Part shown: piece by piece, positions 12,757 to 21,127 of the stretch
Layout: each line of letters opens with the position of its first letter
Numbering within the stretch: position 1 is the first letter of the stretch
Source: Egicoccus halophilus
GTDB taxonomy: Bacteria > Actinomycetota > Nitriliruptoria > Nitriliruptorales > Nitriliruptoraceae
Assembly (NCBI RefSeq): GCF_004300825.1
Contig: NZ_CP036250.1
Span: 558,001 to 622,000 of the forward strand
Direction of reading: 5' to 3'
DNA: 64,000 nucleotides
Program-made: the position numbers and the translations under genes
The notes under the pieces: model-generated
What the model saw: only the letters and a program-made list of their open reading frames with translations
The model's database searches: none
What the model was told of the DNA's origin: nothing

Positions 12757-14583
12757 ATGGGACACCACGAGGGGGGCGCGTCCGTGCCCGCCGTCGCGGC
12801 GCACCGACGCTCCTGGAGCTGGCGCCTGACCGCGACGGCGCTCACCGCCGCGCTCGCCGCCTCGCTGCTGCCCACACCGCAGCCGGCCGCCGCCGACGAC
12901 ACCGTCCGGGTCAACGTGCAGGCCGCACCGGGACAGCTCAACGCCGCGGCCAGGGCCGTGACGGCCTCGGGCGGCCGGGTCGCCGCCCAGCTGCCGGCGC
13001 TCGAGACGCTGGTCGTGGACGTGGCGGCCGGTCAGGTCGACGGTCTCACCGCGCTGTCGTCGGTGATCGCCGCCACCGAGGACGGCGTGGTCCCCCCGGC
13101 CGCGGTGCCGGCCGAGGCGATCGCCGAGGGTGTCGTGGACAGCCCGCTCGACCACGACGAGGCCTACACCGACCCGGCCCGTGGTGTCAGCCTCGACCAC
13201 GTCACCCGCGTCATCGGCGCCCGCGAGCTGTGGGCCCGCGGCGTCACCGGTGCCGGCGTCGGCGTCGCCCTGATCGACTCGGGCGTCGTGCCCGTCGACG
13301 GGCTGACCGCCGGCAACGTCCGCAACGGTCCCGACCTGTCGTTCGAGTCGCAGCTCGAGGAGCTCGCCTACCTCGACACCTACGGGCACGGCACCGCCAT
13401 GGCCGGGATCATCGCCGCGCAGGACCCGGGCCCGCGCAACGCCGCCGGCGGATTCGACGCGGCGCACACCTCCGGCCGCCACCTCGGTGTGGCCCCGGAC
13501 GCCGGACTGCTGAGCCTCAAGCTCGCCAGCTTCGAGGGCGCGACCGACGTGTCGCAGGTCCTGGCCGCGATCGACTGGGTGGTGCAGCACCGCGACGACG
13601 AGGGCCTCAACGTACGGGTGATCAACCTCTCGTTCGGCACCGACGGCGCCCAGGACTACCGGCTCGACCCGCTGGCCTACGCGGTCGAGGTGGCCTGGCG
13701 CCACGGCATCGTGGTGGTCGTGTCGGCCGGCAACGACGGCGACGACTACGGCCGGCTCGCCAACCCGGCGATCAGCCCGTTCGTGATCGCCGTCGGTGCC
13801 GCCGACACCAGGGGCACGCTGCGCACCGACGACGACGAGGTGACCGCGTTCTCCAACCGCGGTGACGGGGTCCGCAACCCCGACCTGCTCGCGCCGGGGC
13901 GCTCGGTGCTCTCGCTGCGCAGCCCGGGCTCCTTCATCGACGTGCGCAACCCGCAGCCCGACGTCGCCGAGCGCTACCTCAAGGGCTCGGGGACCTCGCA
14001 GGCCGCGGCGGTCGTGTCGGGTGCGGTGGCCCTGCTGCTGCAGGAGCGCCCGGAGCTGACCCCCGACGAGGTCAAGTACCTGCTGACCGCGCACGCCACA
14101 CCGCTGGCGGCGCCGGCGACCGAGGCCGGTGCCGGTCTGCTCGACCTGCGCGCGGCCGTGAGCGCGCCGCTGCCTGCCGACGGCGTCGCACAGACCCACG
14201 AGTTCGGCACGGGCACCGGCTCGCTGCAGGCCGCACGCGGGTCGGTGACCCTTGGTGAGGGGGACGAGGCGCTCGTCGGCGAGCACACGATCCTCGGGCC
14301 GTTCGACAGCACCGCCTGGGCCCGCGAGAGCCTGGCGACGCGGTCCTGGCGTGATGGTGCGTGGCTCGGCCAGGAGTGGTCCGACGACTGCTGGTGTGCC
14401 GAGAGCTGGACCGGTCGGACCTGGCGCACCCGAAGCTGGCGCGACGACAGCTGGGCGACCCGCAGCTGGCGCACCGGCGACTGGGACACCCGGTCGTGGC
14501 GTGAGGCCGGGTGGGACACCCGCTCGTGGCGCGATGCCGGGTGGTACACCCGCTCCTGGCGGGCCGAGGACTGGACGAACTAG
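12757..14583 (+). CDS. Secreted S8 (subtilisin-like) serine peptidase with a Trp-pentad C-terminal tail
   Basis: A 608-residue exported protease. N-terminal Sec signal with hydrophobic core LTATALTAALAASLLPTP; a propeptide-like region follows. The catalytic triad is in order: Asp174 in ALIDSGV, His211 in YGHGTAMAG and Ser414 in GSGTSQAAA, with the oxyanion Asn in SAGNDGD. After the catalytic domain (ending near residue 470) comes a linker and then residues 529-608, which are 16 contiguous 5-residue units each with Trp at position 3 (W531, 536 and so on to 606), running right up to the stop. The ATG is preceded by AGGAAGGA. Upstream sits a sigma-28-like promoter; downstream a GGDEF-EAL gene starts at the next base after the stop. 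The substrate is unknown; the tail may anchor the enzyme to a surface structure. Confidence 0.92.
   Translation: MGHHEGGASVPAVAAHRRSWSWRLTATALTAALAASLLPTPQPAAADDTVRVNVQAAPGQLNAAARAVTASGGRVAAQLPALETLVVDVAAGQVDGLTALSSVIAATEDGVVPPAAVPAEAIAEGVVDSPLDHDEAYTDPARGVSLDHVTRVIGARELWARGVTGAGVGVALIDSGVVPVDGLTAGNVRNGPDLSFESQLEELAYLDTYGHGTAMAGIIAAQDPGPRNAAGGFDAAHTSGRHLGVAPDAGLLSLKLASFEGATDVSQVLAAIDWVVQHRDDEGLNVRVINLSFGTDGAQDYRLDPLAYAVEVAWRHGIVVVVSAGNDGDDYGRLANPAISPFVIAVGAADTRGTLRTDDDEVTAFSNRGDGVRNPDLLAPGRSVLSLRSPGSFIDVRNPQPDVAERYLKGSGTSQAAAVVSGAVALLLQERPELTPDEVKYLLTAHATPLAAPATEAGAGLLDLRAAVSAPLPADGVAQTHEFGTGTGSLQAARGSVTLGEGDEALVGEHTILGPFDSTAWARESLATRSWRDGAWLGQEWSDDCWCAESWTGRTWRTRSWRDDSWATRSWRTGDWDTRSWREAGWDTRSWRDAGWYTRSWRAEDWTN
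14341..14580 (+). repeat. Tandem 15/30-bp repeats encoding the Trp pentads
   Basis: Eight 30-bp units (16 pentads) end at the stop codon. The last five units (14431-14580) are the most alike, each beginning with an Arg-Ser-Trp-Arg block; the first three are degenerate but keep every Trp codon in register. Confidence 0.9.
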
Positions 14584-17103
14584 GTGCGACGAGCAGACGG
14601 CGCCGGCTCGGCCCTTCGGGGCCGGGTCCGGTTCGGTGGCGAGCAGCGGGTGTGGATCTTCACCCTGCTGCTCGCTGCCGTCGCGCTCGCGCTCACCGTC
14701 CGCTACGTCGCGCCGCTCACCCTGCCCGGTGACCACCTCCAGATCCCGTTCTGGGTCTTCGTCCCGATCTTCCTGGTCACCGAACTGCTGGTCGTCCACC
14801 TCTACTTCGGTCGCTCGGCACACGCACTGTCGTTCAGCGAGACCCCACTGGTGGTCGGGTTCGTCTTCCTGCACCCGCTGGGGCTGATCGCGGCCCGCCT
14901 CCTGGGCTCCTTCGCGGCCCTGACCCTCAAGGTCCGCGTGCCGCCGATGAAACTCGGCTTCAACCTCGCGGTCGGCTGGCTCGAGACGGTCGTTGGCCTG
15001 CTGGTCTGGCACGCCGTGGTCGGCACGGCCGATCCGCTCGGTCCCCGCGGCTGGATCGCGGCGCTGCTGGCGGTCATCGCCGCCGACGCCCTCTCGACGC
15101 TGGCGTTCGTGGTCGTGCTCTCGCTGCACGAGGGGTCGCTGCAGCGCGAGACCCTCGACGGGCTGTTCGTCGCCGGGCTGCGCACCGCGTTCACCAACGC
15201 GAGCTTCGGGGTCATCGTCGCGACGGTCATCGCGGTCGACTGGCGCGGCGTGTGGGCGCTGGCCGCGGTCGCGGTGACCCTGGTGCTGGCCTACCGGGCC
15301 TACGACCAGCTCAAGCGCAGCCACACGCAGATGGAACAGGTGCACGCGTTCGGCCGCGCCGTGGAGGCCTGCGCGGACGCCGAGGCGGTCGTGGACGTCC
15401 TGCTCGAGCACAGCGCCCACCTGCTGCGCGCCGAGCTGGTCGAGGTGCGTCTCGCCGATGGGGCCGAGGGTCCCGAACGGCGGCGTCGTCGCGAGGATCG
15501 GGTGCAGGTGTCGGGTGCCCCGTCGGCCGACGGGCCGGGGCTGACCACCCCGGTGCATCTCGCCGCGTCCGACTCGGCGACGGCCGATGCGCTGGCCACC
15601 GCCTGGCCCGGGCACGACGAGGCGCTGGGAGTGCCGTTGCGCGGCGACGACGGACAGATCGTCGGTGAGCTGTGGGCGGTCGACCGGCTCGACGACGTCA
15701 GCAACTTCGAGACCGCCGACCTGCGGCTGCTCGAGACGCTGGCGAACCAGGCGGCCGTCGCCTTCCAGAACCGGCGGCTGGTCGACGAGCTGCGGCGCCA
15801 GGGCGCGGCGACCCTGCACCAGGCCCGCCACGACGACCTGACCGACCTGCCCAACCGGGCCCACTTCCAGGAGCGCATGCGCGAGGCGCTGGCCGACGGG
15901 GGACGGGCCGCCGTGCTGCTGCTCGACCTCGACCGGTTCAAGGAGGTCAACGACACGCTGGGTCACCACGCCGGCGACCAGCTCCTGCGACAGGTCGCCG
16001 AGCGGCTGCGGGCCTGTACGCCCGACTGCGCCGTGGTCGCCCGCTTCGGCGGCGACGAGTACGCGGTGCTGGCCCCCGGTCACGGCGACGAGGCCTCGGC
16101 CCGGGTCGTCGCCAACCAGGTCCTGGGTGCGTTCGAGGTGCCCTTCCGCATCGACGAGGTGTCGTTGGAGGTGGCGGTCAGTGTCGGCCTCGTGCTGGCC
16201 CCCGACCACGGCGACCAGCCCGAGGTGCTGGTGCAGCGCGCCGACGTCGCGATGTACCAGGCCAAGGAGCACCGCACCGGCGTCGAGGTGTACGCGCACG
16301 AGCGCGACCCCTACAGCCCTCGACGCCTGGCCATGATGAACGACCTGCGCGGCGCGATCGAGGCCGCCGCGCTCGACGTGCACTACCAGCCGCTGGTCGA
16401 CCTGCTCACCGGCGGGATCCGGGGGCTGGAGGCGCTGGTGCGCTGGGAGCATCCCCGGCACGGACCGATCTCGCCCGACGAGTTCATCCCGCTGGCCGAG
16501 CAGACCGGCCTGATCCTGCCGCTCACCGAGGCGGTGCTGCGGGCCGCCCTGCAGCAGTGCCGGGCCTGGCACGCCCGCAACGCGCGGGTGGTGATGGCCG
16601 TCAACGTCTCCGCCCGCAGCCTGCTCGACGTCGACTTCCCCGACCTCGTCGAACGGCTGCTGCACGAGTCGCGGATGCCGGCCGAGGTGCTCACGCTCGA
16701 GATCACCGAGACGGCGATGCTGCTCGACTCGCTGCGTACCAAGGAGATCCTCGAGCGCCTGTCCGGCATGGGCGTCAAGCTCGCCATCGACGACTTCGGC
16801 ACCGGGTTCTCGTCGCTGGCACGCCTGAAGAACCTGCCCGTCGACGAGCTCAAGATCGACCGCTCGTTCGTCAGCAACATGATGGTCAACGCCGACGACC
16901 GCGCGATCGTGCAGTCGACGATCGACCTCGGCCGCAACCTCGGCCTGCTCGTGGTGGCCGAGGGCGTCGAGGACGAGGAGACGATGCGCCGGCTCGCGAC
17001 CCTCGGCTGCCACGTCGGCCAGGGCTACTGGTTCAGCCGGCCGCTGGCGGCGGCCGACCTCGAACGCTGGTTCCGCCACACGGGTGCCTACCTGGCGGTC
17101 TGA
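14584..17103 (+). CDS. Membrane-bound GAF-GGDEF-EAL cyclic-di-GMP enzyme
   Basis: An 839-residue sensor. Residues about 25-240 are a multi-helix membrane sensor (helices from RVWIFTLLLAAVALAL onward); about 250-400 is a GAF-like domain; then a diguanylate cyclase domain with intact RFGGDEYAVL at residues 486-495, and a phosphodiesterase domain with the EAL motif at about residue 615 (GLEALVRWEHP). Key EAL residues are all present: NVSARSL, EITETAM, DDFGTGFSSL, LKIDRSFV and AEGVED, so it can probably both make and break cyclic-di-GMP, or one activity regulates the other. No RxxD inhibitory site is seen in front of GGDEF. The GTG start directly abuts the peptidase stop with no room for an independent ribosome-binding site, so translation must be coupled. 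Confidence 0.92.
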   Translation: MRRADGAGSALRGRVRFGGEQRVWIFTLLLAAVALALTVRYVAPLTLPGDHLQIPFWVFVPIFLVTELLVVHLYFGRSAHALSFSETPLVVGFVFLHPLGLIAARLLGSFAALTLKVRVPPMKLGFNLAVGWLETVVGLLVWHAVVGTADPLGPRGWIAALLAVIAADALSTLAFVVVLSLHEGSLQRETLDGLFVAGLRTAFTNASFGVIVATVIAVDWRGVWALAAVAVTLVLAYRAYDQLKRSHTQMEQVHAFGRAVEACADAEAVVDVLLEHSAHLLRAELVEVRLADGAEGPERRRRREDRVQVSGAPSADGPGLTTPVHLAASDSATADALATAWPGHDEALGVPLRGDDGQIVGELWAVDRLDDVSNFETADLRLLETLANQAAVAFQNRRLVDELRRQGAATLHQARHDDLTDLPNRAHFQERMREALADGGRAAVLLLDLDRFKEVNDTLGHHAGDQLLRQVAERLRACTPDCAVVARFGGDEYAVLAPGHGDEASARVVANQVLGAFEVPFRIDEVSLEVAVSVGLVLAPDHGDQPEVLVQRADVAMYQAKEHRTGVEVYAHERDPYSPRRLAMMNDLRGAIEAAALDVHYQPLVDLLTGGIRGLEALVRWEHPRHGPISPDEFIPLAEQTGLILPLTEAVLRAALQQCRAWHARNARVVMAVNVSARSLLDVDFPDLVERLLHESRMPAEVLTLEITETAMLLDSLRTKEILERLSGMGVKLAIDDFGTGFSSLARLKNLPVDELKIDRSFVSNMMVNADDRAIVQSTIDLGRNLGLLVVAEGVEDEETMRRLATLGCHVGQGYWFSRPLAAADLERWFRHTGAYLAV

Positions 17104-17211
17104 GCCGCGATGGCGTGCGGCTGTCCGCCCGGGGCCCCTGGTCGGCCGGCCGGTCACCCGAGCCGCGTCGGGCACCGAACCTCCGGCGACGACCCCGAGC
17201 AGGAGCAGTAC

Positions 17212-17427
17212 ATGTCCGGACCCTTCCGCCAGGGCGACGAGGTCGCCTGGAACCACGCCCAGGGCGAGAGCACCGGCCGGGTGAAGCAGATCCACAAGGA
17301 GCGGATCGAGTTCGAGGGGCAGGCCTTCAACGGCTCCGAGGACGACCCGGTCTACATCGTCGAGTCCGACGACACCGGTGCCCGGGCCGCCCACAAGCAG
17401 GGTGCCCTGCGGCGCGTCGGGGACTGA
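17212..17427 (+). CDS. DUF2945/HVA1-family small protein
   Basis: A 71-residue cytoplasmic protein. The pattern FRQGDEVAWNHAQGESTGRVKQIHKERIEFEGQAFNGSEDDPVYIVESDDTGARAAHKQGAL is the single-domain Tudor-like DUF2945 (hypervirulence-associated HVA1) family, of unknown but possibly nucleic-acid-related function. The ATG at 17212 has an AGGAG 6 nt upstream. It sits alone between the GGDEF-EAL and AcuC-like genes with its own ribosome-binding site, so it may form its own unit or be read through from upstream. Confidence 0.8.
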   Translation: MSGPFRQGDEVAWNHAQGESTGRVKQIHKERIEFEGQAFNGSEDDPVYIVESDDTGARAAHKQGALRRVGD

Positions 17428-19862: not shown

Positions 19863-21127
19863 ACGCCGCCTCCCGGGACGCCGACGTGATCTCCATCGCC
19901 GAGCAGCGGGCCGCGCGCTCCCGCGCCACCGGTGTCGCGCGCGAGCGGTGCGCGGCCACCACCGCCGACGGCCGCCCCTGCCGCAACTACGCCGTCGACC
20001 AGGGCCGGTGCCGCGTCCACGCACCGCGGCCGGCGGCGACCACCGACGCCGACCCCGGTGTCGATCCCGGTGTCGATCCCGGGGCCGACCCCGGTGTCGA
20101 TCCCGGGGCCGATCCCGGGGCGAGCGACGATGCCGGGCACGCCACGTCGTCGGGCGCACGCGCCCGGATCCGGCGGGCCGACGACGAGGCGGCACGGGCG
20201 GCCGCCCGCGTCGCCCGGGAGGCGCAGAAGCGTGGCTGGCAGCCGCCGGTGGATGCGCTCGGGGCGTTGCACGAGGTCGCGGGGGCCTCGTGGACCGACC
20301 ACCTGCGCGAGGGTGCGGCGTTCCTGCGCCGACGCCTGACCGGTGACTACGAGGTCGACGAGTTCGGCTTCGACGAGGACCTCACCAACTCCGTGCTGAT
20401 GCCGCTGGTGCGCCCCCTGCACCGTCACTGGTGGCGGGTGGCCAGCCACGGCGCGGCCAACGTGCCTTCCTCGGGCGGTGGCCTGGTCGTGGCCAACCAC
20501 GCCGGCACGCTGCCGGCGGACGCGCTGATCACCCGGCTCGACATCCTCGAGCAGACCGGTCGCCACGCCCGCGAGCTGGCGGCGGACCTCGCGCTGCGCA
20601 CCCCCTTCGTCGGTCCCTTCGCCCGCAAGACCGGCGCGACGCTGGCCTCGGGCCCCGACGCGGACCGCCTGCTCGAGCGGGGCGAACTCGTCGCCGTGTG
20701 GCCCGAGGGCTTCAAGGGGGTCGGCAAGCCATGGCGCGACCGCTACCGACTGCAGCGCTTCGGGCGGGGCGGCTTCGTCGCCACCGCGCTGCGGGCCCAG
20801 GTCCCGATCGTGCCGACGGCGATCGTGGGCAGCGAGGAGATCTACCCGCTGCTCTACGACCTGCGGGTCGTCGCCCGCCTGTTCGGTCTGCCGTACTTCC
20901 CGATCGTGCCGCAGCTGTTCGCGCTGCCGGTGCTCGGCCCGTTGGCGCTGCTGCCGCTGCCCTCGAAGTGGGTGATCGAGTACGGCGAGCCGATCGACAC
21001 CAGCGCCTACGGTCCCGAGGCCGCCGACGACCCGATGGTCGTGTTCGAGCTGACCGACCACGTGCGCGACACGATCCAGCGCATGCTGCACCGCAACCTG
21101 ATGGGGCGGCGCTCGGTGTTCCTCTAG
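19859..21127 (+). CDS. PlsC-type acyltransferase with a Cys/His N-terminal motif
   Basis: A 422-residue protein. Residues about 23-50 contain CAATTADGRPCRNYAVDQGRCRVH, a Cys-Cys-Cys-His pattern like the small DUF5763-type zinc motif. About 58-83 is a DPGVDPG repeat. The C-terminal 270 residues are a PlsC-like lysophospholipid acyltransferase domain, with ANHAGTLPADAL (the family's His/Asp block, here His-x6-Asp), PEGFKGVGK and IVPTAIVGSEE in order. It matches the Rv0502 family of actinobacteria, which pairs with the Rv0501-like epimerase. It probably acylates a lipid precursor at the membrane. The GTG at 19859 overlaps the epimerase stop. Confidence 0.85.
   Translation: MNAASRDADVISIAEQRAARSRATGVARERCAATTADGRPCRNYAVDQGRCRVHAPRPAATTDADPGVDPGVDPGADPGVDPGADPGASDDAGHATSSGARARIRRADDEAARAAARVAREAQKRGWQPPVDALGALHEVAGASWTDHLREGAAFLRRRLTGDYEVDEFGFDEDLTNSVLMPLVRPLHRHWWRVASHGAANVPSSGGGLVVANHAGTLPADALITRLDILEQTGRHARELAADLALRTPFVGPFARKTGATLASGPDADRLLERGELVAVWPEGFKGVGKPWRDRYRLQRFGRGGFVATALRAQVPIVPTAIVGSEEIYPLLYDLRVVARLFGLPYFPIVPQLFALPVLGPLALLPLPSKWVIEYGEPIDTSAYGPEAADDPMVVFELTDHVRDTIQRMLHRNLMGRRSVFL
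20051..20122 (+). repeat. Six 12-bp tandem repeats in the acyltransferase gene
   Basis: Six units of the form GA[CT]CCCGG[TG]G[TC][CG] encode (DPGV/DPGA). All unit lengths are multiples of 3, so change in copy number would lengthen or shorten the linker without frameshift. Confidence 0.9.

Follow-up and report, generated by a model that had tools for sequence, protein, structure and literature searches.

A tryptophan pentad tail on an S8 protease of Egicoccus halophilus as a candidate ligand of an adjacent MASE9-like membrane sensor

An S8 (subtilisin-family) protease of Egicoccus halophilus ends in a tail of 16 tryptophan pentads, and the next gene encodes a multi-TM membrane sensor with predicted c-di-GMP enzymatic domains. 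The tail is conserved across many bacteria of soil and water, its adjacency to the sensor is conserved, and at sensors of the same family the protease can be replaced by small proteins that end in Trp. Genetic pairing of the exported Trp motif with the sensor is strong, and the two genes probably form a signalling module in which the exported pentad tail serves as a multivalent aromatic ligand or as a docking segment. All coordinates in Table 1 are positions in the window, the 64,000-nt stretch of DNA that was analysed (NZ_CP036250.1, 558,001-622,000).

Table 1. Features of the tailed subtilase gene and the downstream sensor gene in the window
Feature	Position	Strand	Evidence or remark
S8 (subtilisin-family) protease	12757..14583	+	608 aa, ATG start; Pfam Peptidase_S8 1.1e-42
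Putative export signal, hydrophobic N-terminal segment of residues ~22-47 with an Ala-rich end	12820..12897	+	sequence; AF2 helix 23-37
Propeptide-like domain, residues 47-108	12895..13080	+	AF2 pLDDT ~90
Catalytic domain, residues 165-454	13249..14118	+	Pfam; Foldseek to subtilisins, TMt ~0.9
Conserved linker domain and first Trp units, residues 480-543	14194..14385	+	AF2 pLDDT 87-98 to ~541
Trp pentad tail, 16 units, W531-W606, up to stop codon	14341..14580	+	sequence
Membrane sensor with GAF, GGDEF and EAL, 839 aa	14584..17103	+	GTG start immediately after S8 stop
Multi-TM sensor domain, residues 18-264, MASE9-like, ECF S-component-like fold	14635..15375	+	AF2 pLDDT 91
GAF domain	15373..15768	+	Pfam GAF_2 2.9e-6
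GGDEF domain	15823..16275	+	Pfam 1.2e-40
EAL domain	16339..17043	+	Pfam 4.2e-74

The subtilase and its tail

The protein belongs to the peptidase S8 family (PF00082) by its profile match and by the presence of the Asp, His and Ser residues. In an alignment of 72 homologues, D174 and S414 are invariant and H211 is at least 90% conserved. The hydrophobic N-terminal segment suggests that the subtilase is exported. The propeptide model Inhibitor_I9 gives a weak match in five of the 72 homologues, and the linker has the family consensus G.GSLE.ARGS...L.GEQDIFG..W....WA. The top NCBIfam similarity of the catalytic domain is to mycosin, the type VII secretion protease (TIGR03921, 5.1e-43), but the score of 147.5 bits lies well below the cut-off of 278.75; unlike mycosin, the window protein has no C-terminal TM anchor and carries the Trp tail instead. 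A plasmid search gave generic S8 matches only, none of them spanning 80% of the query.

The register of the tail is strict, as originally predicted. Trp occupies residues 531, 536 and so on to 606 (codons 14347-14574), all spacings are five residues, and the final unit, EDWTN, abuts the stop codon at 14581-14583. The chance that all 16 Trp residues would share one phase in a shuffled tail of 80 residues is about 2e-16. At the DNA level Tandem Repeats Finder detects only a weak 15/30-nt periodicity. Since 14 of the 16 pentads are distinct and their codons vary, the repeat reflects conservation at the protein level and not a fresh expansion of DNA. No Pfam or NCBIfam family model spans the tail, in line with the earlier statement that it has no assigned function.

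A scan of GTDB genomes and 101 related whole genomes yielded about 110 loci. Where the end of the gene is intact, almost every relative has the tail, and in the same register; its absence from all close orthologues, combined with a predicted lack of an ordered solenoid, had been named as an outcome that would speak against the original prediction. Across 113 distinct tails on S8 proteins, the number of Trp residues per run has a median of 14 and a maximum of 37, the last Trp lies no more than six residues from the stop codon in 76%, and the unit profile is [S/A/R/N/G/T/V]-[S/T]-W-[S/T]-G. Within one protein, units that are identical in amino acids have a median third-codon identity of only 0.53, which indicates that selection acts on the protein. 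The tails occur in Actinomycetota, Chloroflexota and Dormibacterota. Named carriers include Actinoplanes, Micromonospora, Spirilliplanes, Modestobacter, Kineosporia and Ilumatobacter, and among further carriers are MAGs of Acidimicrobiia, Thermoleophilia, Chloroflexi, Dormibacterota and Dehalococcoidia.

When 150 genomes were searched with a DNA pattern of seven in-register pentad Trp codons, the window locus was the sole match in the E. halophilus genome, and all ten long-frame carriers that were scanned are S8 subtilases. Six other pattern matches (L121, L122, L124, L126, L137 and L141) appear to be out-of-frame or low-complexity DNA and were rejected as tails, and the ‘Lamprin’ matches in three homologues look like an effect of composition. 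At L098, L095, L102, L013 and L006, tailed S8 genes come in tandem sets of two or three, often with different unit types. A 1538-aa frame at L079:5692-10305 looks like a natural fusion of tailed S8 protease and sensor; it is probably the product of a sequencing indel, because the sequence at the junction is SGSCCSAERIAWWWND and a separate ATG for the sensor lies downstream, and it was not used.

The tail resembles pentapeptide repeat proteins (PF00805, PF13599) in its period of five and in their consensus A/S/T - polar - large hydrophobic - S/T/R - G. It differs from them in having Trp at every centre and a variable position -2, in the lack of a Pfam match and in the lack of order in the AF2 model. 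That model, built on the 72-sequence alignment, orders the propeptide, the protease and the linker to about residue 541, except for the loop between propeptide and protease, while pLDDT is below 50 over residues 544-608. The first Trp units, 531-540, form short strands every five residues, and the ordered solenoid expected from the original prediction was not obtained beyond them. Neither PF00805 nor PF13599 matches the window protein; a pentapeptide-repeat match occurs in one of the 72 homologues, at 3e-4, and a sub-threshold one in a relative with VNWRG units (L131). Position -2, where the pentapeptide fold wants a small residue, is often R, N, Q, K or L. On the grounds of low pLDDT, negative Pfam result and position -2, the four-sided β helix gains no support, while a Trp tail that becomes ordered upon binding would be compatible with the single-chain model. 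What stands of the original prediction is thus a real, in-register tail with no assigned function; the β helix is not supported, and the membrane sensor encoded downstream had been overlooked.

The sensor and its upstream partners

The presence of both GGDEF and EAL domains makes the sensor a predicted c-di-GMP enzyme. Its TM domain has a conserved K...N pair, K123 and N127. The window sensor has no MASE9 (PF20972) match at the Pfam cut-off, and 14 of 44 sensor relatives give weak, sub-threshold matches. Some relatives that are paired with small peptides pass the cut-off (28.9 bits in L249, compared with 24.3), and all 18 members of the alignment of peptide-linked sensors (A6) match the model. 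Peptide-linked sensor domains thus match MASE9, and the K...FN motif is common to both, whereas the window sensor and most S8-linked sensors fall below the cut-off of MASE9 proper. In Foldseek searches the TM model matches the ECF transporter S components TmRibU and CbiM/NikM with a probability of 1.0, E values of 0.01-0.08 (best 0.013) and TMt of 0.57-0.67; the viral structure library gave no match. Any likeness to S components lies in the predicted fold; in place of an ECF module, the sensor domain here is joined to GAF and GGDEF-EAL or to kinase domains. The model has short outer loops, which, together with the S-component-like fold, suggests that a small ligand or a chain end would suit the domain better than a folded protein.

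Of the 116 tailed S8 genes followed by 700 nt or more of sequence (some of them duplicate records), 85 are directly followed by the sensor gene on the same strand. Actinoplanes and Modestobacter (L042, L104) are among the genera that have the pair. In nine more the sensor lies elsewhere in the locus, for example after two tandem tailed S8 genes. The 63 neighbours that were scanned contain 32 GGDEF, 31 EAL, 15 HisKA and 39 GAF domains; the output of S8-linked sensors is GGDEF-EAL or HisKA/HATPase.

The reverse search, in which 61 genomes were searched with the alignment of the TM domain and the DNA upstream of the sensors was examined, gave 81 near sensors. Their upstream partner is a large Trp-pentad protein in 38 cases, a small predicted-exported protein with Trp in its last six residues in 13, and neither in 30. 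The control on the opposite strand gave three. The sensor genes of L193 and L194 follow putative low-complexity frames of period five, TPAQL and APAQV, and not Trp pentads.

E. halophilus itself has both kinds of partner. A second sensor, MASE9-like with HisKA/HATPase output (from G000:C1:182988), is directly preceded by the gene of a 159-aa, predicted-exported GISWVG-repeat protein (G000:C1:182399-182878, equal to L242:912-1391). Other repeat forms before sensors in relatives are GISWT (L243, L244), GISWLGAIWTS (L217) and EVRWN (L167). The motif is reduced further in a 63-aa protein ending in ...GLSWLGLSWL (L245), in ...QGISWF (L247) and ...AWSWFR (L246), in 42-aa proteins ending in ...AGWVWIR (L171, L249) and in a 30-aa peptide ending in ...GASLSWIAR (L222).

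The tiny-peptide partners fall together on one side of a supported branch of the sensor tree. On the other side, small Trp-repeat and S8-tail partners interleave, and L167, with EVRWN and no protease, lies inside an S8-tail group, so the partner protein changes while the exported Trp motif stays. Since small Trp proteins occur beside the same sensor family without a protease, the protease is dispensable to the pairing, and it is the exported C-terminal Trp motif that is coupled to the sensor.

Tiny Trp-ending peptides before MASE9 genes

The motif is found in its smallest form before more distant sensors. MASE9 genes were present in 65 of the 296 genomes of the phylum that were searched; a control search also picked up those of Thermotoga maritima and Thermus composti. 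In 26 of 68 cases the MASE9 gene is immediately preceded by a short ORF that has a hydrophobic segment and Trp among its final three residues. The same arrangement occurs once on the opposite strand and in none of 63 stretches farther upstream, and dinucleotide shuffles predict 1.2. Nine more have only F or Y in the last three residues, some of them by chance, and roughly half of the MASE9 genes lack a recognisable Trp partner at this position. The peptides are 20-32 aa long and end in ...RW, typical examples being MKKLMRVLIALGSLVGICSTVRW, MKRIFLLLTTLATLVLSGGAAARW and MKTKIIVLLTSLAALVLGGGAGWRW; each is hardly more than one hydrophobic helix with an aromatic end of 3-5 residues. When two families were followed up, the peptides recurred, and most have ATG and Shine-Dalgarno sites. 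The peptides of L253 and L331 are identical in their last 18 residues across 12 synonymous codon differences. Within one family, a Trp-ending ORF precedes 12 of 16 MASE9 genes but none of nine other HD-GYP genes, a small control. The outputs of peptide-linked MASE9 sensors are mostly HD-GYP, that is, c-di-GMP. Nine peptides that were scanned gave no NCBIfam match of note, the AgrD family included. Across lineages the sensor family thus shows the layout of peptide pheromones, with the gene of a small predicted-exported peptide beside that of a membrane receptor; the window departs from it in that the motif sits on a protease.

Several loci vary this arrangement. Two tandem identical genes of a 23-aa peptide, VKKLMRVLIALGSLVGICSTVRW, precede a MASE9 HD-GYP gene at L256:1155-1232 and 1269-1346, and L327 seemingly has two variant copies of the peptide gene. 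Peptides of the same build ending in GARVRV, GARSRV, GGRLG or GSRMG precede MASE9 genes at L289, L290, L295, L299, L304, L315 and L320, and the ligand end may vary by lineage. In one genus, the MASE9 HD-GYP genes of L260, L266 and L267 have no RW peptide; another small protein (KWWEKL...hydrophobic...FK.WYQKS) is encoded 290-405 nt upstream of them.

A signalling model, its alternatives and related systems

In the model that we favour, the subtilase would be exported bearing a short Trp motif, repeated 16 times, at its C-terminal end, and the downstream MASE9-like, ECF S-component-like sensor would recognise this motif from outside and change c-di-GMP inside through its GAF-GGDEF-EAL domains. 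The protease may liberate units by cutting tails or, alternatively, may use the tail to signal that it is present or what state it is in, and the many copies on it would provide multivalence or a supply of cleavable units. Physical recognition, peptide release and the direction of the c-di-GMP response are the inferred parts of this model. The broader proposal, in which we place about even trust, is of a widespread peptide-receptor class in which exported aromatic, mostly Trp, C-termini would be read by MASE9/ECF-S-type domains that set c-di-GMP (GGDEF-EAL, HD-GYP) or kinase output, on carriers from the 4-5 residue ends of signal-sequence-like precursors to 37-unit subtilase arrays that carry or release their own signal. 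Several observations count against a ligand: the want of a recognisable Trp partner immediately before 30 near sensors and some half of the MASE9 genes, the 14 unit types among 16, which are unlike a precursor of many identical peptides, the short outer loops of the sensor model, and the fact that RW peptides and S8 tails share Trp close to the C-terminus and predicted export but cannot be aligned.

The strongest rival takes the protease as the true partner of the sensor, cleaving the sensor or another surface protein, with the tail only holding the protease at the membrane or wall. Conservation of the S8 active site, the frequent pairing of S8 and sensor genes and the preference of Trp for membrane interfaces speak for this, but the same sensor family is also paired with protease-free small Trp proteins, in E. 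halophilus as elsewhere, which leaves the protease an unlikely partner. The peptides and tails could instead be structural or regulatory subunits of the sensor, serving its assembly or control, and not diffusible or released signals; MgrB, a small membrane protein that controls PhoQ, is the model for such a role. It would suit the tiny peptides, which have little beyond a single helix and an aromatic end, but it fits poorly for the small proteins of 60-160 aa, which have long Trp repeats and ordinary signal peptides, and for full predicted-secreted proteases, and we regard a subunit role as quite unlikely.

The reading originally offered, a pentapeptide-like Trp β-solenoid with a role in fixing the protease to a glycan, filament or lipid or in inhibiting it, now seems improbable. 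The family consensus, [SANTV]-[ST]-W-[ST]-G, resembles that of pentapeptide repeats, and the sub-threshold matches in L131 and one of the 72 homologues and the short strands at 531-540 point the same way; against these stand the low pLDDT over the rest of the tail and the frequent R, N, K, Q and L at position -2. Anchoring and self-inhibition gained no specific support, and the solenoid leaves the sensor pairing and the single-copy peptides unexplained. It is more improbable still that Trp codons before the stop stall ribosomes when Trp is low and so control translation of the sensor. Such attenuation would account for Trp codons near the stop and for a sensor start that often overlaps or comes immediately after; however, conservation extends to the hydrophobic export segments, some ends have F, Y, V or other residues at the equivalent place, gaps between peptide and sensor can be long, peptide genes can be tandem (L256), and non-Trp residues are kept despite free synonymous change.

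By function, the Trp-tail/sensor module would resemble peptide-receptor signalling. In Agr-type systems (AgrD with AgrC), a small exported peptide is encoded beside a polytopic membrane sensor, as here; unlike in Agr, no AgrB-like processing gene was seen and the C-terminus itself is the conserved end. LapD/LapG is a module of c-di-GMP-controlled proteolysis in which an extracytoplasmic protease acts with an EAL/GGDEF membrane protein. The likeness is in this pairing, at the level of genes only, while the protease family and the membrane domain are different and the Trp tail has no counterpart there. The ComS/XIP-ComR systems of streptococci use double-tryptophan pheromones that are read by ComR, a cytosolic regulator (PMC5131902). 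There, as in the present system, the gene of a short C-terminal peptide with Trp lies next to that of its receptor or putative receptor; unlike ComR, the partner here is a sensor with a multi-TM domain whose output is c-di-GMP or a kinase, and a protease can carry the motif in many copies.

No paper on MASE9, its ligands or the Trp tail was found in the open literature, outside which most subscription journals lie. MASE9-type sensors are common, and genome context names a chemically simple candidate ligand for them; ...TVRW, GISWVG and the RSWRD-type units of the window are all synthesisable. If the model is true, it would add a peptide-signalling class, most likely undescribed, on an ECF-S-like receptor, would link secreted proteolysis to c-di-GMP in Actinomycetota and Chloroflexota, and would explain a striking protein tail while identifying a family of unannotated genes of 20-30 aa.

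Downstream of the sensor gene, the window encodes a small protein with an Hva1_TUDOR domain (17110-17427), and a GC-rich tandem repeat of 12/24/36 bp lies at 20048-20121.
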